From Syntrophothermus sp. DTU052 (GTDB lineage Bacteria > Bacillota > Syntrophomonadia > Syntrophomonadales > DTU052), in NCBI GenBank assembly GCA_001512495.1, contig LFRU01000058.1:1-34236 (forward strand): a stretch of DNA of 34,236 bases. The letters are read 5' to 3'. Shown one piece after another: positions 140 through 32,730 of this stretch (the stretch's first letter is position 1; the number at the start of each line of letters is the position of its first letter). The translations under genes and the position numbers were made by a program. Under the pieces are notes generated by a model. The model did not search any database. It was not told the DNA's origin and saw only the letters and a program-made list of their open reading frames with translations.

Positions 140-979
140 CTAAGCCTGCCTCACCTTTATGGCCTTATACTCTCTGGTAATTGCAATTACAGCATTTTCA
201 GTGGGTGTTCGTTCTCCGCTGGAACCGGAGGCATAGCCGTCAGCATCAGAGTTGGCGATGGAGTACTGTGCGGTTGGGGCATCGGCAAAGGGGCCGCCAT
301 GTGTCAGTACGAAGACATCGGGGTTTACGGAACGGGCAGCCAGGCACATTTTCTGCACCTCGGCGGTAGCTCTTTCAAGGGTCATGACCTCTTTGGCTCC
401 GGTTAGACCGCCGCTGGTTACCCCGATAATGGCCCCGATTACATCGGCACCCGCTTCTGCCATAATACGGGCCTCGTTTTCATTAAAAGCCCAGGCTACG
501 GTGAAGATATCCTTTTTATGGGCGGCTTTGATTAACTCGACCTCGCGGGAAAAGCCGATTCCCGCATCCTCCAGCTGTTTGGCGAAGAATTCTCCGTAGA
601 GACCGGCAAAGGGTTCATTGGTGATACCGGAAAAGTCAAGGGCCATCATCTCGTCGATTATCCTATCAAGGTTCAGTGCCGGGTTATGGGCGCCGATGCC
701 CGCGATACAGGGAGCGGTTTTGACCACCGGTATTATCTCCCGGGCCATCTGTTTAACCCGCGCGTTGCAGTCCTCATAGGGCATCCAGGCGAGAAGGGTG
801 GGAAGTCCCATCATACGCCATATAGCCGTAGAATAAACCGCCACCAGATCCGCTCCGCCCAGATCAGCACACTTGGCCGTTAAACCGGTTCCCGCACCGA
901 ACATCAAGAGTGCCTGGTTCTTTTCCACCTGGTCCCGTAACCGAGCCAGTATCTCAGAGCGTTTATACTGTACTGCCAT
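140..979 (-). CDS. PEP-hydrolase-family TIM-barrel protein (paralog 1)
   Basis: This 279-residue protein belongs to the phosphoenolpyruvate hydrolase-like TIM-barrel family (PF09370), which also forms the C-terminal half of the plant Tm-1 resistance protein. Visible family marks are GAGTG near residue 30, MPY near 67, AGIG near 93, QLEDAG near 135, a TSGG loop and HGGP near the end. I chose the ATG at 979 because GGGAGG lies seven bases upstream and because the protein then aligns from residue 1 with its paralog at 3208-4056; an ATG at 994 is also open. It lies 26 bases after the Tm-1-like gene and ends the operon. The two barrels are clearly homologous but divergent, so they may be different enzymes or two subunits. 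The substrate is unknown. Confidence 0.85.
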   Translation of the reverse strand: MAVQYKRSEILARLRDQVEKNQALLMFGAGTGLTAKCADLGGADLVAVYSTAIWRMMGLPTLLAWMPYEDCNARVKQMAREIIPVVKTAPCIAGIGAHNPALNLDRIIDEMMALDFSGITNEPFAGLYGEFFAKQLEDAGIGFSREVELIKAAHKKDIFTVAWAFNENEARIMAEAGADVIGAIIGVTSGGLTGAKEVMTLERATAEVQKMCLAARSVNPDVFVLTHGGPFADAPTAQYSIANSDADGYASGSSGERTPTENAVIAITREYKAIKVRQA

Positions 980-1005
980 ATCTATACCTCCCAATTAAAG
1001 TGTTA

Positions 1006-2346
1006 TCAGAAAGGAATCACATATGGCAGACCAGCCCTGTTCCCTTTGGTCCATTTGCCACTGAGCATTTCCAAAAGCAATTCTGCCAGCAGCTCGGCGA
1101 AAGATGGGTCATTCATGTGTTTATCCACCAGAATGACCTCCAGGTTATCCTTGCTGGGATCGATTTTGGCTTTGAGGGCTTTTACATACTGCACTGAACG
1201 CCGTGACCACTTGGGATTCTGCTCATCAGCCACCCATACCGGTCCTGCTCCGGGTCCGGCCCACCCCAACTCTATGTCCGGTGTTGCCAGGTCACAGGCT
1301 CCCCAGCCTTGCATGGGCACGCACAACACACTGGGGCCCTTGGCGGCATTGAGCTTTTCCGCCATGTGTTCGCCGATCCGGTAGATCTCATCCATGGACA
1401 CCCCGATACAGGTTACCGTGGGATTATGCTCATACAGGCCCCGTCCGGGCTGGTCAGTCTCCCTGAGCAGCCTTTCCGGCACGGTATTCTTGGGGCCAAA
1501 GTTGATAAGGTCCAGTCCTCCCGGGGCGATTACCTGGGGGATGCCCATGTCCCCGGCGGCGGTCATGCGGTCGGGGCCGGCACCCAGTACCCCGCCCAGC
1601 ATTTCATCGGCGATTTCATGGGTGGTTATATCCAGCATCCCCGTTATATAACCGTCCCGGATCAGCTCTTCCATGGAGCGGCCGCCGCTGCCGACCGCGT
1701 GGTTGATAATGACGTCATAACCGGCCTTTTCCATGATGGAGGAGGCCCGCAGTACACAGGGGGTGGTCACGCCGAACATCATGCAGCCGATCAGCGGTTT
1801 TTCCTCTATTCCTTCCATGACCGGAGCCGAGGCCATGCCAACAACAGCTGCCGCTGCGTTATTGAGTATCCCCCGGGTGACCTTGTTGAGGCCGGCTTCA
1901 GCAATGGGATATAACATACAGATATCACTGGTGCCAACATAGGGTGCCACGTCCCCGGAGGCCATGGTGGTAAGCATCATCTTGGGAAAGCCGATGGGTA
2001 GTGTCTGCATGATCCTGGTAGCAATGCTGGCTCCCATGGAACCGCCATAGGCGATGATGCCGTCTACCTTTTCTGCGGCCAGCATTTCATTTACCAGGCT
2101 GATTGCCCCTTCCGTCACCAGGTCGGAGGCACCTTTGCGGTCCAGGGCAAATATATCTTCCGGTTTTTTGCCCACCCGGGCGACCACTTCGCTCAGGCTG
2201 ATATCTGCCCATCCTACTTCATGGCCGACGCTCAATTCCAAAATGGTGGGGTTGCCACCCGCTGCTCTGACCCGATCGGCCAGGAACTTGATCTCTTCTC
2301 CTTTGGTATCGAGGATTCCGGTTACCAATATCTCTTTAACCGTCAT
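1006..2346 (-). CDS. Tm-1-like ATP-binding domain protein (UPF0261)
   Basis: This 446-residue protein matches the UPF0261/Tm-1 N-terminal family (PF06792). It shows ILDTKGEE near residue 12, a glycine-rich YGGSMGASIAT around 100, PKMMLTTMASGDVAPYVG around 125 and a GLNKV...NAAAAVVGMA stretch around 160-175. In plants this domain is fused to a PEP-hydrolase-like barrel; here the two halves are separate neighbouring genes. The plant Tm-1 N-domain binds ATP and inhibits a viral replicase, but the bacterial role is unknown and is probably metabolic. The start has GAGGAGG seven bases upstream and overlaps the end of the ComB-like gene by 11 bases, which suggests translational coupling. The family is certain; the reaction cannot be given. 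Confidence 0.88.
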   Translation of the reverse strand: MTVKEILVTGILDTKGEEIKFLADRVRAAGGNPTILELSVGHEVGWADISLSEVVARVGKKPEDIFALDRKGASDLVTEGAISLVNEMLAAEKVDGIIAYGGSMGASIATRIMQTLPIGFPKMMLTTMASGDVAPYVGTSDICMLYPIAEAGLNKVTRGILNNAAAAVVGMASAPVMEGIEEKPLIGCMMFGVTTPCVLRASSIMEKAGYDVIINHAVGSGGRSMEELIRDGYITGMLDITTHEIADEMLGGVLGAGPDRMTAAGDMGIPQVIAPGGLDLINFGPKNTVPERLLRETDQPGRGLYEHNPTVTCIGVSMDEIYRIGEHMAEKLNAAKGPSVLCVPMQGWGACDLATPDIELGWAGPGAGPVWVADEQNPKWSRRSVQYVKALKAKIDPSKDNLEVILVDKHMNDPSFAELLAELLLEMLSGKWTKGNRAGLPYVIPF

Positions 2347-3133
2347 TGTTTTCCCTCCTCAATTGGTTGATGTTTTTACCTTCCCAGTTGGAAAACCGGA
2401 TCAGACCGTGATCCAACTGCATATGAGGAACGACCTCTGAGGTGTTTATCTGCAGGCAGCATTCAAAATCTTCTCTTCCGCCTTCCTGCAGGAGCACTTG
2501 GCCGCTGGCGGATTCCAGGAAAGCGGTCCGTGCATCGGGGTAGGCAGCCAGTAAAGCTTTGGCGGCCCGGGATGCATCCGAGATACGGAGTTTCAGCCCC
2601 CGATATCCAGCCAGGTCTTCCAGCTCTTGCAGGAGGTAGCCGGCACAGTATGCATCATCCAATACAAATTTTCCATACTGCCCCGCACATACTATCGTTA
2701 TTCCGCAGGACGCGGCCTGGGCTGCGGTCAAACCAGCCCCGGCACAGGCTCCGGCATTTAAGAGGCTGGCGATAAACAGGTTAACGCACCCCTTGGCTTT
2801 GTCTATCGCCCGCGTACCGTTGCTGGTGCACAAGGCCACATCCCTGCCTTTAACCGGATACTTTTTGGCTTCCGCCGGTGAGTTGTCCATATCAAACCCA
2901 GGCAGTTTGCGTCCCTGCCATTCCCCGCTGGTAACCATCCGCCTCTGAGCTCCCAACTGCCGGGCGTGTTCCTCTTCGGCCACGGTATAAACCCAACGGC
3001 AGCCGTTATCCAGGAGTGAAACAATCGTACTGCTCCCCCGGAGAACGTCTATTAACAGACAGACAGTATTATCTGCTTCAGGAGTATAATCCCTTAATGA
3101 GAGAGCGGTATCCACCTCAATAACCATGCTCAT
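2336..3133 (-). CDS. ComB-like phosphatase (2-phosphosulfolactate phosphatase family)
   Basis: This 265-residue protein has the ComB family signatures (PF04029): LIDVLRGSSTI near residue 27, GRKLPGFDMDNSPAE near 75 and CTSNGTRA near 102. Characterised ComB is a Mg-dependent phosphatase that converts 2-phospho-3-sulfolactate to sulfolactate in coenzyme M synthesis; Bacillus relatives are linked to spore sulfolactate. No ComA-like phosphosulfolactate synthase is visible in the window. Here the gene sits between the two barrel and Tm-1-like genes, so it may dephosphorylate the product of the RuBisCO-like protein instead. That would parallel MtnX acting after MtnW, and is inference. The ribosome site is weak (AGGA, nine bases upstream). 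The gene follows an internal terminator, so its expression may be lower than that of the first two genes. Confidence 0.82.
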   Translation of the reverse strand: MSMVIEVDTALSLRDYTPEADNTVCLLIDVLRGSSTIVSLLDNGCRWVYTVAEEEHARQLGAQRRMVTSGEWQGRKLPGFDMDNSPAEAKKYPVKGRDVALCTSNGTRAIDKAKGCVNLFIASLLNAGACAGAGLTAAQAASCGITIVCAGQYGKFVLDDAYCAGYLLQELEDLAGYRGLKLRISDASRAAKALLAAYPDARTAFLESASGQVLLQEGGREDFECCLQINTSEVVPHMQLDHGLIRFSNWEGKNINQLRRENNDG

Positions 3134-3163
3134 TCAACTACATCCTGTTCCGGTTCCCATTCT

Positions 3164-3198
3164 AAAAACTCCCTGTTGTCCGGCCGGACAACAGGGAG
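3164..3198 (-). terminator. Internal operon terminator (30-bp perfect palindrome)
   Basis: Bases 3169-3198 form a perfect 30-bp palindrome with 15-bp arms and no spacer. On the minus strand it is followed at once by five T residues (3164-3168), which makes a strong intrinsic terminator. It sits ten bases after the stop of the 3208-4056 gene and 36 bases before the ComB-like start. It would split the operon into a strongly expressed front half and a read-through-dependent rear half. A protein-binding operator is the other reading of such a symmetric site. Confidence 0.75.
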
Positions 3199-3207
3199 AA
3201 ACGGAGC

Positions 3208-4056
3208 TTATTTCTTCTTAAGTGGGATATTCTTGAATTGCTGACAGGCTTCCTTAAGCGGTACTTCGATGGGAATGCGTTCAATACTGGAAGCACCCAA
3301 AAAGCCTACTGATTCCGTGTGTTCATAAATGTAGCGGGTGTCCTCAGGATAGGCTATCGGTCCGCCATGGGAAAAGATCATGATATCCTTGTATCCACTG
3401 CGGGCCGCCTGGGTCATTTCGTTAATCAGTTCCGCACATTTTTCGAGGGTGAGCCTATCCTCTGCATACTTTGATCCGATAGAACCGCCGGCAGTCAGAC
3501 CCATATGACATATCAACACGTCCAGTTGGGCTTCGCCGACCAATCGGGCCTCGTCTACGTTAAAAGCATACCCCAGGGTGAACAGACCCAACTCCTTACC
3601 AATTTTCAGGGTCTCGATTTCCACCCCGTATCCCATACCGGTGTCTTCCAGCTCCTGGCGGAAGCGGCCGTCAATCAAGCCGACAGTCGGGAAGTTCATG
3701 ATGGCTGAAAAACCTAGATGCTGCAGGTGCTGAAAGTAAGGCCGCATTTCCCTGGTGGGGTCAGTTCCGCATATACCGGCAATCATGGGAGTTTCTTTAA
3801 TAACCGGGAATACCCGGTGTGCCAGATCGATGACTATCTGATTGGCATCACCATAAGGCATGAGCCCGGCCAGGGAACCCTTACCATCCATACGGAACAG
3901 CCCGGAGTTGTAGACCCCGATCAGGTCGACTCCCCCCTGCTCCGCAAATTTACCGGATATGCCGGTTCCGGCCCCGGCAATGATGATCGGTTTACCCTTG
4001 GCAATTTCCGCTTGTAACCTGGCCTTGACTTCATCACGGGTATACTGTTTTGCCAT
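3208..4056 (-). CDS. PEP-hydrolase-family TIM-barrel protein (paralog 2)
   Basis: This 282-residue protein is the second member of the PEP-hydrolase-like TIM-barrel family (PF09370) in the operon. It shows AGAGTG near residue 28, MPYGDANQ near 68, MIAGICGTDPTR near 92, RQELEDTGMG near 133, HMGLTAGGS near 185 and SHGGPIA near 230. The start is well set by AAGGAGG eight bases upstream of the ATG. The gene follows the RuBisCO-like gene by only 14 bases, so the two are surely co-transcribed and probably work on the same metabolite. It differs clearly from paralog 1 (TAGGS against TSGGL, longer C-terminus), so the pair is not a recent duplication. The substrate is unknown. Confidence 0.87.
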   Translation of the reverse strand: MAKQYTRDEVKARLQAEIAKGKPIIIAGAGTGISGKFAEQGGVDLIGVYNSGLFRMDGKGSLAGLMPYGDANQIVIDLAHRVFPVIKETPMIAGICGTDPTREMRPYFQHLQHLGFSAIMNFPTVGLIDGRFRQELEDTGMGYGVEIETLKIGKELGLFTLGYAFNVDEARLVGEAQLDVLICHMGLTAGGSIGSKYAEDRLTLEKCAELINEMTQAARSGYKDIMIFSHGGPIAYPEDTRYIYEHTESVGFLGASSIERIPIEVPLKEACQQFKNIPLKKK

Positions 4057-4070
4057 AGTAACTCCTCCTT

Positions 4071-5387
4071 TTATCCTTTAATATCAAAGATCCCGTTTCC
4101 TTCTGTTTCAATAAGCCCCCAGGCGTCAACTGCCGCCTGCAGTTCAGGGTGTTCTTTAGCTGCTTCCACAATGGGTATTCCGGCCACGGCTGCTTCTATT
4201 GCCTGGCGCATGGCTCTGGCTCCTGCCACCGGTCCCATAGGATGGCCGTGAATTGCTCCCCCGGCCCCCATAATACAGTCAAGTCCCAGATCGCGGTATA
4301 TGACGTCGACGCAGTTAGGCATTACCCCCCCGCCGGGCATGGGGAAAACCCGGTTGATATTGCACCAGGGGCTGTTCAGGTGATGTCCTATCTGCAGATA
4401 GCGTTCCCGCAGGAGAGGGAACTTGCCATAAGGACTGGGATAGACTACCATATCGGCCCCGGCCATGCGTGCAAGTTTGCCCAAAATAAGGTAGGAGCTT
4501 ATACCGGAGACCGGTGATTCATACATGGTCCCGGCAAAATCCAGGTGGGCCATTATCGGGACATTAATATCAGGATGTTCTGCCAGACCCTGCAGAGCGG
4601 AAATACCTACGGTCAGGTAGTTAATCATTAGTGCATTGGCCCCGGCATCAATAGCCCGCCGCGCATTATCCAGCACTTTTAGTGCCCCGTCGGTGATGTT
4701 GGGGGTATACAACACCCGGTGCCCGGTATCTTCGTAGTGCTTGCGAATAGCCTCCATATACAGCTTGATTCTCTTCTCAATGGGATTAAACGGCGGATCC
4801 GCAATCAGCTCGTCATCCTTGATAATGTCCACTCCGCCCTCAACCGCCCGGGTGAACAACTGGCAGCCGACTTCAGGAGAATACCCGGTGCAGGGTTTAA
4901 TCATATTGTTCAGCAGTGGTCGGTCATATACTCCCAAGAGCTGGCGCACCCCTTCAACCCCGAATTTGGGACCCTTAAACTGGGACAGATAACCGGGGGG
5001 GAATTTAATATCCAGGAGTTTCAGGGGGCCAATCATTGAAATATTACCAATTATGGTAGACAGCATCATGGGGATCTGGGGGCCGAAGTTCACTGCCGGG
5101 TACGCCAATTGAAATACCCACTGGCGTTTATCCTGGCTCTCAGGAACCTCGTATTCGTTCCCCGGGACCTCATATATACTCACCACTTTGGCCACATGTT
5201 TTTCCCGAACTTCCGGAGTTTCTTCGGGGACGGCTACCCAGGTACCGGTGGTCTGTTCAATGGCGATGGAACTGATCTTCTTCACGATATCCAAGTCGCG
5301 TCCGGTCTGCAGGTAATAGGTGGCGATTACATAGTCGCCAGTTGCCTCAATATGTTCCGGGATAACCATCATTTCCAACTCAGACAA
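4071..5387 (-). CDS. RuBisCO-like protein (form IV), function unassigned
   Basis: This is a RuBisCO large-subunit homolog whose sequence runs parallel to Bacillus MtnW along most of its length. Numbered from the TTG at 5387 (438 residues), counterparts of spinach RuBisCO residues are kept as follows: Glu44/Thr49 (E60/T65), Asn115 (N123), Lys164 (K175), the GGVDIIKDDE motif with Lys190, Asp192 and Glu193 (K201/D203/E204), His281 (H294), Lys322 (K334) and two glycine loops. Changed are K177 to Cys166, R295 to Leu, H327 to Val and S379 to Gly. The protein is thus neither a CO2-fixing RuBisCO nor a clear MtnW enolase. I prefer the TTG start because AGGAGG precedes it by ten bases and the length then fits the family. 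The frame stays open to an ATG at 5576 (501 residues), but that ATG has no ribosome site. Confidence 0.88.
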   Translation of the reverse strand: MSELEMMVIPEHIEATGDYVIATYYLQTGRDLDIVKKISSIAIEQTTGTWVAVPEETPEVREKHVAKVVSIYEVPGNEYEVPESQDKRQWVFQLAYPAVNFGPQIPMMLSTIIGNISMIGPLKLLDIKFPPGYLSQFKGPKFGVEGVRQLLGVYDRPLLNNMIKPCTGYSPEVGCQLFTRAVEGGVDIIKDDELIADPPFNPIEKRIKLYMEAIRKHYEDTGHRVLYTPNITDGALKVLDNARRAIDAGANALMINYLTVGISALQGLAEHPDINVPIMAHLDFAGTMYESPVSGISSYLILGKLARMAGADMVVYPSPYGKFPLLRERYLQIGHHLNSPWCNINRVFPMPGGGVMPNCVDVIYRDLGLDCIMGAGGAIHGHPMGPVAGARAMRQAIEAAVAGIPIVEAAKEHPELQAAVDAWGLIETEGNGIFDIKG

Positions 5388-5590
5388 ATTGATGAATCCT
5401 CCTTGCTTAAAAAGTATTGGGGAATGCTGCCATTGGATTAAAGGCTCAGCACCTCCTTGTCGGAAGCGTGCTGCCGTGCGGAGATTAATACCTTTAGAAG
5501 TTTGTGCATCCTGCTGCTCCTTTATTCCAGATGGGAAAGGTAAAATGACAGGTTCTCTGTCCTCCAATTCTACCATCTAATTAACTGCTA
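5388..5590 (-). promoter_or_regulatory. Possible structured leader of the RuBisCO-like operon
   Basis: If translation starts at 5387, a leader of about 200 nt precedes it. Read on the minus strand it contains a GACAG/CTGTC hairpin nested between GATGG and CCATC arms, and a long bulged hairpin at 5443-5475 that sequesters a GGAGG. A second, exposed GGAGG (5398-5402) serves the TTG start. I do not recognise a known riboswitch class. The stretch is also an open 63-codon extension of the gene, so it may be coding instead. Confidence 0.35.
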
Positions 5591-5789: not shown

Positions 5790-6710
5790 ATGAAGAGTTC
5801 TGTTGGCTACCTGATTGACAGGTTCCTTAAGCTTAAAGAGGAACGTTCCGCCTATGTGATAGCCCATTATTACCAGCGGCCCGAGGTTCAGGATGTAGCT
5901 GACTTTGTAGGCGATTCTTACAGCATGGCCCTGGCCGCCAGGGAAACGCCGTGCGAAACCATACTGGTGGCCGGGGTTGATTTCATGGCCGAGACTGCTG
6001 TCATTCTATGTCCGGAGAAGACGGTACTAACCCCGGAACCGGACGCCACCTGCCCGATGGCCAACGATATAACGGCGCGAGATATTCTGAAATACAGGGA
6101 GCGATACCCGGACAGCATCGTTGTCTGCTATGTAAATACCCCGGCTGAGGTCAAGGCGGTGAGCGATGTCTGCTGTACCTCATCCAATGCCGCCAAAATC
6201 ATAGAAAAAATGCCGCCTGAGGCCAGAATATTCTTCGTACCTGATCATCACCTGGGGCATAATATCGGACACCGACTGAATCGCAGCATTGACCTTTATC
6301 GCTCCTGCTGTCCCACCCATGAGGAGGTCAGGACGGGTGGACTGCTGGAACTGAAACAAAGATATCCTGCTGCCAAGATCCTGGTGCACCCGGAGTGCCG
6401 CCCGGAAGTGGTGGATGTGGCTGATTTTGCGGGGAGCACCCGGGCCATTATTGAATATGCAGAGGCTTCGGAAGCGGATTCATTTATCATTGGAACCGAA
6501 TGTGGAATCCTTCATCCCCTCCAAAAGGCTAACCCCCGCAAGGAGTTCATCCTGGCAACCAAAGATTTGATATGCCCCAACATGAAGAGCATCACCCTGG
6601 AAAAGATGATTTACTCGCTGGAGCACATGGAAACCAGGGTAATGGTGGAAGAGTCGGTTAGACTCAAGGCCAGGATAGCTCTGGAGCGGATGATTGAGTA
6701 TGCGACATAA
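5790..6710 (+). CDS. nadA: Quinolinate synthase NadA
   Basis: NadA condenses iminoaspartate with dihydroxyacetone phosphate to quinolinate in NAD synthesis, using an oxygen-sensitive [4Fe-4S] cluster. The 306-residue protein has the usual length and motifs: AHYYQRPEVQ near residue 25, GVDFMAET near 62, HPEC near 200 and GTECGI near 235. The expected cluster ligands are Cys88, Cys174 and Cys262, which correspond to C83, C168 and C254 of the Thermotoga enzyme. GGAGGG nine bases upstream supports the ATG. No nadB or nadC is present next to it. Instead it is followed by an Rrf2 regulator and the IscS/IscU genes, which fits its need for Fe-S cluster assembly. It may be co-transcribed with them, although the 64-base gap could hold a separate promoter. 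Confidence 0.95.
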   Translation: MKSSVGYLIDRFLKLKEERSAYVIAHYYQRPEVQDVADFVGDSYSMALAARETPCETILVAGVDFMAETAVILCPEKTVLTPEPDATCPMANDITARDILKYRERYPDSIVVCYVNTPAEVKAVSDVCCTSSNAAKIIEKMPPEARIFFVPDHHLGHNIGHRLNRSIDLYRSCCPTHEEVRTGGLLELKQRYPAAKILVHPECRPEVVDVADFAGSTRAIIEYAEASEADSFIIGTECGILHPLQKANPRKEFILATKDLICPNMKSITLEKMIYSLEHMETRVMVEESVRLKARIALERMIEYAT

Positions 6711-6774
6711 GGCGGTATAAATTTTCTTTATTTGGCCTATACCCATAGAGTGTCAGGAGAAATGGAGGTACAGT

Positions 6775-7221
6775 ATGAGGTTATCTACCAAAGGACGATA
6801 CGGATTGAGAGCCATGCTGGACCTGGCCGTTCATAAGGATGAAGGGCCGAATGCGGTTTATCTGGTTGCGGAGCGGGAAGGGATATCGGATCGTTACCTG
6901 GAGCAGATAATGACATCTCTCAAGCGGGCGGGGCTGATTAAGAGCATACGCGGACCTCAGGGGGGATATGTCCTGACCAGAGAACCCGACGAGATCACCG
7001 TTGGCCAGATAATCCGAGCCCTGGAAGGGCCCATTGCCCCGGTCGACTGTGTCAGTGAAGAGTATCCGGAGGAATGTGAACGAGCCGACCGTTGTGTCAC
7101 CCGATTGCTGTGGGCCAAGGTTCGGGATTCCATTGTAGAAGTTCTGGATTCTTACAGCCTGCAGGACCTGATCGAAGAGTCGAAACAGAAGAATTCCAAT
7201 TGCTCCGGATCCGCACAATAG
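6775..7221 (+). CDS. Rrf2/IscR-like transcriptional regulator
   Basis: This 148-residue winged-helix protein has the Rrf2 family N-terminus (RLSTKGRYGLRAMLDLA), the recognition region ISDRYLEQIMTSLKRAGLI and the wing SIRGPQGGYVL. Cys92, Cys101 and Cys107 match the three cluster-binding cysteines of E. coli IscR (92, 98, 104) in position, though the spacing between the first two is wider. It therefore probably senses a [2Fe-2S] cluster and controls the iscS-iscU genes 21 bases downstream. CymR-type cysteine regulators are related but, to my knowledge, lack this cysteine triad. AATGGAGGTACAGT precedes the ATG, a good ribosome site. A GGTATA/TATACC inverted repeat in the upstream gap is a possible autoregulatory site. 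Confidence 0.88.
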   Translation: MRLSTKGRYGLRAMLDLAVHKDEGPNAVYLVAEREGISDRYLEQIMTSLKRAGLIKSIRGPQGGYVLTREPDEITVGQIIRALEGPIAPVDCVSEEYPEECERADRCVTRLLWAKVRDSIVEVLDSYSLQDLIEESKQKNSNCSGSAQ

Positions 7222-7242
7222 GACGGGAAAGGGGACAGTCAT

Positions 7243-8412
7243 GTGAAACGAGTCTACATGGATCATAGTGCGACTACTCCGGTTGATCTCCGGGCTCTGC
7301 AGGCCATGGAGCCGTACTTGACTGAGGAGTATGGCAATCCCTCCAGCATTCACCGGATGGGACAGGCGGCCCGCAACGGGGTGGAAACCGCCCGGGAGCA
7401 GGTGGCGCGCTTAATCAATGCCGCACCCGCGGAGATCATATTTACCAGCGGCGGGACCGAGGCTAACAATCTGGCGATACTGGGACTGATAGAAGCGATG
7501 CCGCCCCAGGGACAGCATATAATCACCTCGGCGGTTGAGCACCATGCGGTTCTGGATGTTTTCACCTACCTGGGCCGGAAGGGTTACGATGTAACGATTC
7601 TCCCCGTGAACAGGTACGGGATGGTGGAGCCGGAAACACTGGAGCGCGCAATGAAACCCAATACGGCACTGGTTTCGATCATGCATGCCAACAATGAGAT
7701 CGGTACCATCCAGCCCATTAAACAACTGGCGGCCATTGCCCGCCACAGGGGAGCCGTCTTTCATACCGACGCAGTTCAGAGTGTGGGACGCATCCCGGTT
7801 GATGTAAAGGACCTGGGGGTGGATATGCTATCCTGCTCTTCCCACAAGCTTTATGGACCCAAAGGGGTGGGATGCCTGTATATAAAGAAGGGAACCCGCC
7901 TGGCCCGACGCGTGTATGGAGGGTCTCAGGAGCGCAAACTTAGGTCCGGAACCGAGAATGTACCGGGTATTGTCGGTTTTGGGGCAGCGGCAGACATTGC
8001 CGGTAAAAGAATGAGTGAAACCATGGAACGTCTAAGTGATTTCGGCCGTTACTTATCCGGCAGTTTGCAGAGGCTGATTCCGGATACTATCCTGACCGGG
8101 GATCCTGTTAACCGCTTACCCGGGCATGTCAGCCTTTGTTTCAAGTATGTTGAGGGTGAGTCCATCTTGTTGATGCTGGACCAAATGGGCATCATGGCCT
8201 CCAGCGGTTCTGCCTGCACTTCGGGGTCTCTGGACCCTTCTCATGTGCTGCTGGCTATCGGCCTTCCACATGAGGTGGCCCATGGGTCTATCCGGCTGAG
8301 TCTGGGCCGCTCCAATACCAGGGAAGAGGTGGACTATGTGGTGCAGGTTCTGCCGGGTATTATTGAGCGGCTCCGAATGATGTCTCCTATGGCCGAGGAG
8401 GGGAAAATCTAA
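7243..8412 (+). CDS. iscS: Cysteine desulfurase IscS/NifS
   Basis: This PLP enzyme removes sulfur from cysteine as an enzyme-bound persulfide and passes it to Fe-S scaffolds and thiolation enzymes. The 389-residue protein has the DHSATTP start, GGTEANN near residue 70, the PLP lysine Lys202 in SSHKLYGPKG and the catalytic Cys325 in SGSACTSG. The start is GTG, with GGGGA about eight bases upstream. Its stop overlaps the start of iscU by one base (TAATG). Gene order regulator-iscS-iscU is the common Clostridia arrangement. Likely local clients are IscU, NadA and MnmA. The short loop around the catalytic cysteine does not separate IscS from NifS with certainty. Confidence 0.95.
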   Translation: MKRVYMDHSATTPVDLRALQAMEPYLTEEYGNPSSIHRMGQAARNGVETAREQVARLINAAPAEIIFTSGGTEANNLAILGLIEAMPPQGQHIITSAVEHHAVLDVFTYLGRKGYDVTILPVNRYGMVEPETLERAMKPNTALVSIMHANNEIGTIQPIKQLAAIARHRGAVFHTDAVQSVGRIPVDVKDLGVDMLSCSSHKLYGPKGVGCLYIKKGTRLARRVYGGSQERKLRSGTENVPGIVGFGAAADIAGKRMSETMERLSDFGRYLSGSLQRLIPDTILTGDPVNRLPGHVSLCFKYVEGESILLMLDQMGIMASSGSACTSGSLDPSHVLLAIGLPHEVAHGSIRLSLGRSNTREEVDYVVQVLPGIIERLRMMSPMAEEGKI

Positions 8413-8798
8413 TGGCCTTGTATTCGGAGAAGGTGATGGATCATTTTCTTAACCCGCGGAATGTGGGCACCATCGAAAACCCAAGCGGAGTCGGCAGAGT
8501 AGGTAACCCGGTTTGTGGTGATGTGATGCAGATTGAAATAAAGGTGGAGGATGACCGTATCGAGGACATCAAATTCAAAACCTTCGGTTGTGCCGCAGCT
8601 ATCGCCACCAGCAGCATGATCACCGAAATGGCGAAAGGCAAGACCCTGGAAGAAGCCCGTGCCATCACCAATAAAGCCGTGGCTGAGGCCCTGGACGGAC
8701 TGCCTCCGGTTAAGATGCACTGCTCCAACCTGGCTGCCGAAGCACTGCAGGAAGCGATCGACCAGTACCAGGGGAAGGTCAAATCAAATAATAATTAA
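8412..8798 (+). CDS. iscU: Fe-S cluster assembly scaffold IscU/NifU N-terminal type
   Basis: This 128-residue protein is a U-type scaffold on which [2Fe-2S] and [4Fe-4S] clusters are built. The three cysteine ligands are present as Cys35 (GNPVCGD), Cys60 (TFGCAAAIATSS) and Cys104 (KMHCSNLA), together with Asp37. It lacks the C-terminal Nfu domain of full-length NifU. It is translationally coupled to iscS through a one-base overlap. No HscA/HscB or ferredoxin genes follow, so this is the minimal S/U system typical of anaerobic Firmicutes. The zinc-bearing SufU form has an insertion before the last cysteine; this protein lacks it and fits IscU/NifU better. Confidence 0.93.
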   Translation: MALYSEKVMDHFLNPRNVGTIENPSGVGRVGNPVCGDVMQIEIKVEDDRIEDIKFKTFGCAAAIATSSMITEMAKGKTLEEARAITNKAVAEALDGLPPVKMHCSNLAAEALQEAIDQYQGKVKSNNN

Positions 8799-8928
8799 CA
8801 GCGTAATTGGGAGCGGATTGAACGCGAGATGACGGGTGGGCTTGGAACTTTATGCTGCTGATCCAGCTTACACAACAGATGACAGGGGGGGTCATCTACG
8901 GATTTACCGGAAGTGTACCTCCCCTGTG

Positions 8929-8955
8929 GTGTCAGGGGGACGGTTCTCTTGGCAC
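8929..8955 (+). repeat. REP-like palindromic element
   Basis: The core GGGGGACGGTTCTCTTG is framed by GTGTCA and TGGCAC. This is a motif I recognise as a dispersed repeat in many Firmicute genomes, often tied to REP-associated transposases. It can fold with 5' flanking CTCCCCTG. A second small hairpin (GATGAC/GTCATC, near 8879-8897) lies beside it. The cluster sits between convergent iscU and cysK and may also end transcription. Confidence 0.4.
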
Positions 8956-8985
8956 CATCAACCCTGCGTCGTTATTCTATTCAGT

Positions 8986-9921
8986 TTACATCCCCTGAAA
9001 CAGCTCTGTTGACAGGTACCTTTCACCGGTATCGGGAAGCAGAGCCACAATGGTCTTACCGCTGTTTTCAGGTCGTCTGGCAATCCGGGTGGCGGCGAAG
9101 GCTGCGGCTCCAGAGGAGATGCCAACCAGCAGCCCCTCGCTTTGGGCCAGCTTACGCGCAGTGTCAAAGGCTTCATCGGTCGTTACCCGAATAATCTCGT
9201 CAATGATGCCGGTGTTAAGCACTTTCGGAACAAACCCGGCTCCAATTCCCTGCAGTCCGTGAGGTCCCGGGCTGCCGCCGGAAAGTACCGGCGAGTCGTG
9301 GGGCTCAACCGCGACCAGTTTGAACTCCGGCTTCCGGGACTTAATAACTTCACCCACCCCGGTTAGAGTACCGCCGGTTCCGACTCCGGCCACGAAAAAG
9401 TCAACTTCACCCTCGGTATCGCGCCATATCTCCTCAGCGGTGGTTCGGCGGTGGATCGCCGGGTTGGAGGGGTTTTCAAACTGCTGGGGTATGAAAGAAT
9501 GTGGAATCTCGGCCGCCAGCTCCTGGGCCTTCCTGATAGCGCCCGACATTCCCTCTGTACCAGGGGTCAGTACCAGTTCCGCTCCCAGGGCCTTCAGCAG
9601 GTTGCGGCGCTCCAGGCTCATGGTTTCCGGCATGGTAAGAACAAGCCGGTAGCCTTTGGCGGAGGCCACAAAAGCCAGGGCGATCCCGGTATTGCCGCTG
9701 GTAGGTTCAATAATGACCGAATCCGGGTGTAGTAACCCGTTGTCCTCGGCATCCTTGATCATAGCATACCCGATGCGGTCCTTGACGCTGCCGGCGGGAT
9801 TGAAATACTCCAGCTTCAAGAGCAGCCGGGCGGTCAGGTTCTGCGACCGGCTGTAGTTTACGGGTTCAAGGAGCGGTGTATTACCTATCAGATCGGTAAG
9901 ACTCCGCGCAATTCTGGGCAT
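8986..9921 (-). CDS. cysK: Cysteine synthase (O-acetylserine sulfhydrylase)
   Basis: The enzyme makes cysteine from O-acetylserine and sulfide with PLP. The 311-residue protein has LIGNTPLL near residue 11, the PLP lysine Lys47 in [21 protein letters not shown] near 80, [12 protein letters not shown] near 180 and the GISSGAA phosphate loop near 265. The ATG at 9921 is chosen because GGAGGT precedes it by seven bases and because the family N-terminus aligns there; an upstream start at 9945 lacks this support. It follows metY after about 80 bases on the same strand and is probably co-transcribed with it. The two enzymes compete for sulfide, making cysteine and homocysteine. No serine acetyltransferase gene is present in the window. 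Confidence 0.94.
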
Positions 9922-9999
9922 GGTTTTTACCTCCGTTCTCAACAAAAGTAATGGTCGGCCTGAGCCTGAAGTTCATGGCGAGGAGCGGCTCCTACTTTC

Positions 10000-11319
<1,320 letters not shown>

Positions 11320-11363
11320 TCAGGTATAATAGCCTAGTAAACCTATATACATTATTGATTAAA

Positions 11364-11446
11364 TCAATTTTGCTGAGGCGTTGTCAACGACTAAGTATTT
11401 GGTAATTTCGTTACTCTTGAAATATTATCTGGTTATAACCTATAAT
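11364..11446. promoter_or_regulatory. Divergent metY / metA promoter region
   Basis: For metA (plus), TTGAAA at 11417-11422 and TATAAT at 11441-11446 are 18 bases apart, a near-consensus sigma-A promoter. For metY (minus), TTGACA (11382-11387) is followed after 18 bases by TTTAAT. A GGTTATAACC palindrome (11431-11440) lies inside the metA spacer and could be an operator. The metA promoter lies downstream of the TTG at 11381, which rules out the long open frame starting there. Confidence 0.6.
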
Positions 11447-11509
11447 GCCAATAAAATCTATAAAAATAGTGTAGAATACCCGTACCGGGTTGGAGAAGGG
11501 ATGATGACC

Positions 11510-12427
11510 ATGCCCATTATTATTCCGGATGATCTGCCGGCCAGCAGCGTCTTACAAAACGAGAATGTTTTCGTAATGCACGAAAAGCGGGCGCTACACC
11601 AGGATATCAGGCCGTTAAGAATTGCCATACTCAACATTATGCCCCAGAAGGAGATTACAGAAACCCAATTGCTCCGCTTGCTGGCCAACACGCCTTTGCA
11701 GGTCGAAATCGTTCTCTTGCATCCGGAAACGCACCAGAGCAAGAATACATCACAGGATCACCTGGATAACTTTTACCAGACCTTTTCGGAGGTTTGTGAT
11801 CAAAAATTTGATGGAATGATCATCACCGGCGCTCCGGTGGAACTGCTTGATTTTGAGCAGTGGAATTACTGGGAGGAATTGAAGGAAATAATGAAGTGGA
11901 CTCGAACCCATGTTTTTTCAACCTTCCATATCTGTGTGGGAGCTCAGGCCGGTTTATACTATCATTACGGCATATCCAAGTATCCTTTGCCACAGAAGAT
12001 GTTCGGTATATTCGAACACAGGGTTTGCGTGAGAAACAGGCCTTTGCTGCGTGGGTTCGATGACATATTCTATGCGCCCCATTCCCGGCATACTGAGGTC
12101 CTGAAAAGCGACATCGAAAAGGTTCCCGAACTGGAGATTCTGGCTGAATCCGAGGAGGCTGGAATCTACATCGTCAGCAGCTCGGACGGGCGGCAGGTTT
12201 TCGTGACCGGCCACTCCGAGTATGATCCGACTACCTTGAAGTACGAGTATGAGCGGGATCTTGCCAAGGGGCTGCCCATACAAATACCTGTCAATTATTT
12301 TCCGGAGGACGACCCGTCAAGACCTCCCAGGGTTTTGTGGCGCAGCCATGGTTTTTTGCTGTTCTCCAACTGGCTGAACTACCACGTATATCAGGAAACC
12401 CCGTTTGACCTAAATGAAATAAAGTGA
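11510..12427 (+). CDS. metA: Homoserine O-acetyltransferase (MetA type)
   Basis: MetA-family enzymes acylate homoserine as the first committed step to methionine. Counted from this ATG, the catalytic residues fall at the canonical numbers: Cys142 in [10 protein letters not shown], His235 and Glu237 in GHSEYD. Residue 111 is Glu (TGAPVE). In this family Glu111 marks acetyl-CoA use and Gly marks succinyl-CoA use, so O-acetylhomoserine is the predicted product, which matches the divergent metY. The protein is 305 residues. An ATG at 11501 (three residues longer) sits closer to GGAG and is an alternative start. The long upstream frame is excluded by the promoter at 11417-11446. Confidence 0.94.
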
Positions 12428-12767
12428 TCAGTCAACGAGCATGGCTCCTAGCTTGTGCTCTTGGTCAATCAGGCGGTAAGGCTTCCCGCAATCGTGACCA
12501 CGGTGCAGCCCGAGTTCGACGTTGGCACCGGTTTATTCTACAATGTTGTTAACGAATGGTCCTGGTGAGGTCACAAACGGCGCACACACCGCTTTATTAT
12601 CGCTCTTTATTCGAGGTCATTAAACCGGGTAAACTGTAAAGCGGGAAAGAGCCAATCTGGTCCGGACCCTCATATAAAACGAATTGTGGGGAGGCTGCCG
12701 GATATACCTGGAGGGAGGTAACGGGCAGCCTCCGGATGATCGAAGGAAACGGGAAGGTGTTAACAAT
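12428..12767. other. Gap between metA and mnmA
   Basis: No gene is supported here. A weak hairpin (GAGCA with TGCTC, near 12438-12461) follows metA and may end it. Just before mnmA, a 9-bp inverted repeat (12691-12699 with 12724-12732) encloses GGAGGGAGG and could form a leader hairpin. An open frame from 12684 joins mnmA in phase but has no family support upstream of 12768. Confidence 0.4.
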
Positions 12768-13844
12768 ATGTCCAGGGTATTGGTGGCGATGAGCGGGGGG
12801 GTTGACAGCTCCGTAGCCGCTTGGTTGCTCAAAAACCGGGGGTATGAAGTAGCGGGGGTGACCATGCAGATCTGGCCCCGGGAGGATGACGATGCCAAAG
12901 CCTGCTGCAGCTTAAGCGCGGTAAATGATGCCCGCCGGGTGGCGGCTCATCTGCAGATACCTCATTATGTTATGAACTTCCGGGACGAGTTCCAGGCGGA
13001 GGTTATCGACCTGTTCACCCGGGAGTACCTGGCCGGCAGGACCCCCAACCCCTGTATCGAGTGCAACCGCAGGCTGAAGTTTGGCTCCCTCCTTGACAAA
13101 GCCTTAGCCATGGGCTTTGACTATATTGCTACCGGTCACTATGTCCGCATCCAGTGCCGGAATGGGGAGTATCTGTTATTAACCGGCCTGGATCCAAGGA
13201 AGGACCAGAGTTATTTCCTGTATACCATGAACCGGCACCAGTTGGCCCATACCCTTTTCCCTTTGGGCGAATACCATAAGTCGCAGGTGCGGGCCATGGC
13301 GGAGGAGGCTGGTTTGCCGGTGGCTCATAAGGCCGAAAGCCAGGAAATCTGCTTCATCTCGGAGGGAGATTATGGTGACTTCGTGGAGAGGAATGCGGGA
13401 CAGGTACCTCCCCCGGGGCCTTTCAGATCCTCCAACGGAGATTATCTGGGTTTACACCGGGGCATTCACCGTTACACCATCGGGCAGCGCCGGGGACTGG
13501 GCCTAGCCCTGGGGAAACCGGTCTTTGTCACCAGGATAGACCCCGAAATGCAGGAGGTCTGGGTGGGGGAGCAGCGGGAGCTTTTCAAACCCGGACTGAT
13601 TGCCGGTCAGGTTAACTATATATCCGGGAAACCGTTCTCGGCACCCCGGAAGGTGACGGCGAAGATCCGGTATGCCGCTCCCCGGGTTAGTGCCACCGCC
13701 ATACCCATGAAAAACCAGCGTCTAAAGGTGGTGTTCGAACAGCCCCAGAGAGCCATTACCCCCGGGCAGGCGGTTGTCTTATATGAAGGGGAACAGGTCC
13801 TGGCCGGAGGAACGATAGCAGAGGTTATAGAGAACGAGAGGTAA
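12768..13844 (+). CDS. mnmA: tRNA 2-thiouridylase MnmA
   Basis: MnmA thiolates U34 of tRNA-Lys, -Glu and -Gln, using ATP to adenylate the base and sulfur from a cysteine desulfurase. The 358-residue protein has the PP-loop SGGVDSS at residues 9-15, the first catalytic cysteine Cys96 in TPNPCIECN and the second, Cys195, in SQEICFI. The region [16 protein letters not shown] near 275 and the C-terminal beta-barrel are also present. The start is the ATG behind GGGAAGGTG, because [11 protein letters not shown] is the normal N-terminus; an in-frame start at 12684 would add 28 unlikely residues. The IscS at 7243-8412 is a plausible sulfur donor. Confidence 0.95.
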
Positions 13845-32349: not shown

Positions 32350-32730
32350 AATTTCATAGCAATAGAAGTAATGAAAGAGGAAAGTAGGTTCCGGGTACTT
32401 CTCGCAGGGAGGAGATGCCGCGACTGGAAGCGTCTCCAGAAGGAAGGAACTGAAGTTCCCTCTGGAACTCCCGGCTGAAACCATGGTGCAAGTAGGCTAG
32501 GGCGGAGCTTTCGCCGTTAAAAGGAAGGGGGTATCGGATGTCATCCCGTACCTTGGCTTACCCCGATAAGGGTGGTATAGCGAAAGGAAAAGCCTTTCGT
32601 CCCTTGTGGACCAAAGGCTTTGTTGTTTCATCCCGTACCTCATAGAGTGGGGCACCAACGTGCCCAATAAGGGTGGTACCGCGGGTAGCAGGCCTCTCGT
32701 CCCTTGGCAGGATGAGAGGCCTTTATATAT
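32350..32730 (+). promoter_or_regulatory. T-box leader with two antiterminator/terminator modules
   Basis: The T-box senses uncharged tRNA and controls transcription of the downstream aro genes. Stem I spans about 32374-32490 and includes the AGTA motif (32393-32396). Candidate specifiers are ACC after GAA (32480-32482) or TTC (32456-32458, Phe); I cannot decide. The first T-box core (32568-32582) is degenerate, ATAGCG replacing ACCGCG, and its terminator is a 9-bp stem (32589-32597 with 32613-32621) plus TGTTGTTT. The second core (32666-32684) is canonical, with terminator 32690-32698/32714-32722 plus a TTATATATA tail. A direct repeat CATCCCGTACCT (32542 and 32629) marks the duplication. The second module has no room for its own stem I. 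Confidence 0.85.

Follow-up and report, generated by a model that had tools for sequence, protein, structure and literature searches.

The closest described counterparts of the operon studied here, a minus-strand group of five genes around a RuBisCO-like protein (RLP) in Syntrophothermus sp. DTU052 (contig LFRU01000058.1; "the window" is the whole stretch of 34,236 nucleotides analysed), are other RLPs with the partners encoded beside them and two systems built from its remaining families. MtnW, the IV-YkrW RLP that serves as 2,3-diketo-5-methylthiopentyl-1-phosphate (DK-MTP-1-P) enolase, is like the window RLP in about 40% of its residues, in acting on a monophosphate and in being followed by a phosphatase (MtnX), but it carries K123 and S334 (spinach numbering) where the window RLP has N123 and K334, and it has neither UPF0261 nor PF09370 partners. 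Downstream of MtnW, the route depends on O2. The OiaX-type RLPs (3-oxo-isoapionate-4-P decarboxylase type) resemble ours in adjoining a kinase gene, a probable one in the window operon, and in K334; unlike it, they have G at position 123, keep R295 and are joined by a different kinase family, the DUF1537-type (four-carbon acid sugar) kinases. Nearer still is a sister clade from Chloroflexi, Actinomycetota, archaea and others, at 50-58% identity and with the same E60, N123, C177 and K334, in which 37 loci have an FGGY kinase and, beside it, either a saccharopine-dehydrogenase-like gene or one for a class III aminotransferase, and lack UPF0261 and PF09370; this clade is itself uncharacterised.

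UPF0261 and PF09370 are themselves known to be linked, and to be fused in plants as Tm-1-like proteins (PMC5028733). The window operon contains the same two families that are fused in plants or adjacent in bacteria, but with a distinct UPF0261 subfamily, two barrels, and a linked RLP and phosphatase. Finally, the acetovanillone pathways (Hpe/Acv/MarK) share with the module proposed below the sequence of a kinase, carbon chemistry on the phospho-compound and a phosphatase, and MarK is probably a UPF0261 protein; their substrate, however, is aromatic, and they use a biotin-dependent carboxylase where the window operon has an RLP. No description of UPF0261, PF09370 and an RLP together was found in the open-access literature, and the operon is apparently undescribed.

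Conservation and layout of the operon

The five genes are conserved as a unit. When the proteins of 84,980 species genomes were searched with the RLP, 80 relatives at about 50-94% identity were returned, and among their loci all five genes are contiguous in 16 and four genes, without PF04029, in ten. The hosts of the conserved operon are Syntrophomonadaceae, Thermacetogenium-like bacteria and Clostridia of the Formimonas/Oscillospiraceae type, and a rearranged version is present in one Caldisericota genome. There (L045:9980-18259) the RLP is accompanied by UPF0261, PF09370, an acetamidase/formamidase-family gene, a second PF09370, a zinc alcohol dehydrogenase and PF04029. Across 101 related genomes, UPF0261, and likewise two or more PF09370 genes, were found in all 17 genomes with this type of RLP versus 6 of the 84 without it (Fisher p ~1e-14, not corrected for shared ancestry). 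In a sample of 399 genomes of the phylum, every genome with a close UPF0261 (13/13) had the RLP on the same contig, a few kilobases away; the sole genome with the RLP and without UPF0261 (G325) has a contig that ends inside the operon. One genome (G335) is an exception to this exclusivity, with a 53%-identical UPF0261 adjoining a PF09370 gene and no RLP. Over 28 operon loci, pairwise identity of UPF0261 follows that of the RLP (r = 0.89). This conservation rules out a chance grouping of the five genes, and the co-occurrence of the RLP with PF06792, PF09370 and PF04029, on which an earlier note on this DNA had let its proposal of a joint pathway depend, is thus borne out.

The genes, in the order in which they are read, are:

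4071..5387, minus strand: RLP, 438 aa, TTG start, PF00016/PF02788
5398..5404, minus strand: ribosome-binding site AAGGAGG of the RLP gene, 10 nt before TTG 5387
3208..4056, minus strand: PF09370-A, TIM barrel (PEP_hydrolase-like), 282 aa, PF09370
2336..3133, minus strand: PF04029 ComB-family phosphatase, 265 aa, 197.5 bits
1006..2346, minus strand: UPF0261 (Tm-1-like) protein, 446 aa, PF06792/PF23189, 11-base overlap with the PF04029 gene
140..979, minus strand: PF09370-B, TIM barrel, divergent paralogue of PF09370-A (~38% identity), ATG 979 preferred over TTG 994

Open reading frames and profile searches agree on this layout with the earlier note in genes, families and spacings (14, 74, -11 and 26 bases from RLP to PF09370-B, the last with ATG 979 taken as the start of the final gene, which the starts in relatives also favour), and only the start of the RLP had to be corrected. 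Its open reading frame of 4071-5576 (501 aa) is too long by 63 codons, since AAGGAGG precedes TTG 5387 and relatives begin at the same residue. The PF09370 model was matched twice in the operon, with 357 and 304 bits. Base 1 of the window is also base 1 of the 44,803-base contig, so that 139 bases are visible beyond PF09370-B; no sixth gene after PF09370-B is conserved at the relatives' loci, which is why the operon, as judged from these comparisons, is probably complete. A promoter and terminator scan ahead of the window operon gave nothing above chance.

Active site and clade of the RuBisCO-like protein

The RLP belongs to the RuBisCO superfamily, with PF00016 and PF02788 above cut-off and the KDDE motif present. 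In a table of active-site residues from 83 clade members, T65, N123, K175, C177, K201, D203, E204, H294, K334 and G381 are invariant, and E60, present in the window RLP, and W66 are almost so. The two residues that bind the 5-phosphate of ribulose 1,5-bisphosphate (RuBP), R295 and H327, and also K177, all three required of a RuBP carboxylase of forms I-III, are replaced in every one of the 83. The window RLP also scores under both NCBIfam cut-offs for MtnW (401.9 versus 409 and 352.9 versus 513.6 bits), and has N in place of the catalytic Lys of MtnW at position 123, as do all clade members; it falls far below the OiaX cut-off (203 versus 700 bits) and has no adjoining DUF1537 kinase. Judged by model cut-offs and active-site residues, it is neither MtnW nor OiaX, in line with the earlier note, which set the operon apart from the known RLP pathways by its partners. 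Support in the RLP tree is 100/100 for the window clade, 100/98 for the clade of the Clostridia operons and 97/86 for the FGGY clade; long branches leave the deeper join with MtnW unsettled.

Further RLPs, divergent from these, adjoin UPF0261 in four more genomes (L213, L214, L229, L231), with TPI-like and RpiB-like genes nearby in L213, L229 and L231, and class II aldolase and ABC transporter genes in L229 and L231. They lack E60 and K334.

The likeness to MtnW raises the possibility of a variant salvage of methionine or 5'-deoxyadenosine, in which the RLP would act on methylthioribulose-1-phosphate or a derivative and the ComB-like protein would take the role of MtnX. MtnW is the nearest solved relative of the RLP, the succession of RLP and phosphatase recalls MtnW/MtnX, and MtnA is present in 17/17 of the RLP-bearing relatives. 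However, MtnA is also present in 72/84 of the relatives without the RLP (89/101 overall), so its co-occurrence does not discriminate, and the window RLP lacks the K123 and S334 of MtnW. Moreover, the genome itself carries, in one cluster, MTAP (above cut-off), MtnA, a class II aldolase and a deaminase-family gene, which suffice for a route to dihydroxyacetone phosphate. We consider salvage unlikely, because 5'-methylthioadenosine and 5'-deoxyadenosine are already served by this MTAP-MtnA-class II aldolase cluster.

The partner proteins and the surroundings of the operon

The UPF0261 protein, which scores above cut-off for PF06792 and PF23189, has as its nearest solved structure 9mpy, Saro_1862 of Novosphingobium aromaticivorans with acetovanillone bound (~32% identity; other matches of the fold search were weak). 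In that species acetovanillone catabolism begins with MarK, a single-component kinase, in a pathway of kinase, carboxylase and phosphatase (PMC13101465, 2026). By our own reading, MarK is probably Saro_1862. Since the source species of 9mpy starts the breakdown of acetovanillone with a kinase, a kinase role is suggested for the UPF0261 protein, which by this distant homology is a probable ATP-dependent kinase. The window-type operon contains no known sugar kinase, and UPF0261 is present. Together with the FGGY and DUF1537 kinases of the other groups, this suggests from gene neighbourhoods that RLPs of different clades have repeatedly been paired with different kinase families, probably including UPF0261. 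The earlier proposal that the Tm-1-like protein cleaves or activates the product is best revised towards a kinase, cleavage being less likely.

For the PF09370 barrels, family membership follows from the model cut-off and from a modelled fold like 2p10 (47% identity to PF09370-A); the fold search with PF09370-A returned only 2p10 and generic TIM barrels and gave no functional hint. At L131:8475-9662, in another genome, a PF09370 domain is fused to an AraC-type helix-turn-helix (HTH) and adjoins a second PF09370 and genes for a KDPG aldolase, a PfkB kinase, a KduI-like protein and KdgT. This fusion, and the alternative family name TIM-barrel signal transduction (PMC5028733), would fit a metabolite-sensing module in which ligand binding by the barrels and UPF0261 would govern the RLP or its expression. 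Such a role seems quite unlikely to us, since the operon PF09370 proteins are single-domain, many invariant residues are retained in both barrels, and dedicated regulators of the PF04309 and SorC types are present instead.

Phosphate removal by the ComB-like protein, as claimed in the earlier note, fits the operon as a step, but this protein is only one of three exchangeable phosphatases. Among the loci covered, PF04029 is found in the operons of Syntrophomonadaceae, Thermacetogenium-like bacteria and Caldisericota, while a PHP-domain protein (PF02811) adjoins the RLP gene in its place at L049, L063, L068, L091, L133 and L135, and a HAD phosphatase at L035 and L072; in these eight loci, as elsewhere, no two of the three occur together. 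None of the three lies within the stretch read at L039, L043, L069, L083 and L134. Because PF04029, PHP and HAD proteins replace one another, the gene content suggests that the dephosphorylation step can be supplied by different enzymes.

This exchange also bears on a pathway for a sulfur metabolite (sulfolactate or a sulfo-sugar), with ComB as a true 2-phosphosulfolactate phosphatase. It is compatible with the PF04029 membership and with the cysteine, methionine and Fe-S genes next to the operon, which in the window (5790-13844) comprise divergent NadA-Rrf2-IscS-IscU and CysK/homocysteine synthase/MetA/MnmA genes. Yet the protein misses both NCBIfam cut-offs for 2-phosphosulfolactate phosphatase (138.5 versus 330 and 127.9 versus 175.05 bits), PHP or HAD phosphatases stand in for it in sister operons, and similar sulfur genes lie near operons in the window's own genus and in two further lineages (L025, L026, L037, L038, L133) and are absent near most operon loci. 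We regard this pathway as very unlikely, and the sulfur-containing sugar proposed earlier as weakly supported.

Regulators at related loci are of two kinds: a PF04309 gene (glycerol-3-phosphate responsive antiterminator family) lies upstream of the operon in Thermacetogenium-like relatives, and a SorC-type sugar-binding regulator, not PF04309, is found at the Clostridia operons. Both would point to a phosphorylated effector and, as regulators of sugar-phosphate type, favour the module proposed below. In the Thermacetogenium-like relatives a leader, GGGACYAGAGA..AGAGT.AGTCCC, precedes the RLP and overlaps a terminator hairpin with covarying pairs; its antiterminator-like and terminator hairpins overlap (ten examples, among them L036:6362-6475, L038:9831-9944 and L233:9872-9985). 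Each of the ten genomes that bear the leader has a single copy, at the RLP operon and nowhere else, with the PF04309 gene adjoining in most; it matches no Rfam family and was not found in the window's genome. The Rfam scan gave no match in five relatives and only one in the window, a T-box leader far from the operon, at 32362-32707 on the plus strand.

Other arrangements were seen around these genes. In Candidatus Formimonas warabiya (L083:910-9511), transposase-like genes lie between the SorC gene and the RLP operon. In Caproiciproducens faecalis (L101:5933-16440), a pair of nearly identical RLP genes is accompanied by a SorC regulator and a GlpA-like/GlpB-like/DUF1667-like trio. At L135:6893-10337, a second RLP of genome G034 stands with SorC and PHP genes and without UPF0261 or PF09370, the four-gene operon being elsewhere in that genome.

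The proposed module and its meaning

We hypothesise that the operon encodes a module of kinase, RLP and phosphatase with two accessory TIM barrels, acting on a small sugar-like phospho-compound, a reading to which we give a probability of roughly 0.5. Starting from the observed gene content, conservation, active-site residues and phosphatase exchange, we infer the kinase role, the order of the steps and the chemistry as follows. UPF0261 would phosphorylate a small hydroxy-carbonyl compound with ATP, probably a sugar or sugar acid, and the RLP would hold the product by its single phosphate in the RuBisCO P1 site, its substrate probably being a monophosphorylated sugar, sugar acid or keto acid. 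The carbamylated-Lys/Mg centre of the RLP would then form an enediolate, which would undergo isomerisation or (de)carboxylation, and the PF04029 enzyme would strip the phosphate afterwards. The PF09370 barrels could be lyase-type enzymes on the substrate or product, or partners of UPF0261. The earlier idea of an RLP that enolises or (de)carboxylates a monophosphorylated sugar acid keeps its monophosphate part, while the residues do not decide between enolisation only and (de)carboxylation.

Several points weigh against this module. At ~32% identity, neither kinase activity nor the kind of substrate need be shared with 9mpy, and the identity of MarK with Saro_1862 is inferred. No transporter gene is a member of the operon, which argues against the catabolism of an imported sugar, and the AraC fusion seen elsewhere, in a family to which no reaction is assigned, makes a sensing role for PF09370 possible. 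K334, E60 and N123 would permit (de)carboxylation without proving it, and since divergent RLPs linked to UPF0261 lack E60 and K334, the chemistry may differ between RLP groups.

A genuine CO2-fixing RuBisCO of the RuBP type, in an archaeal-like nucleotide pathway, would be consistent with the retained K175, K201, D203, E204, H294, K334, E60 and N123 but is hardly credible given the replacement of R295, H327 and K177 throughout the clade, a form III score of 267 bits against a cut-off of 497, and an operon without nucleotide-pathway genes.

The operon defines a conserved genetic unit for an RLP clade without assigned function, and ties this clade to two widespread families, UPF0261 and PF09370, without an assigned metabolic role here. 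The ComB-less operon of Candidatus Formimonas warabiya (L083) makes its function accessible to experiment. A more specific version of the kinase, RLP and phosphatase module, which we advance only tentatively, is that the RLP is a biotin-free (de)carboxylase of new function on the compound phosphorylated by UPF0261, with the exchangeable phosphatase releasing the product. If true, this would represent a new anaerobic CO2-linked pathway, and would give a native role to the pair of UPF0261 and PF09370, which plants gained in the form of Tm-1-like proteins.

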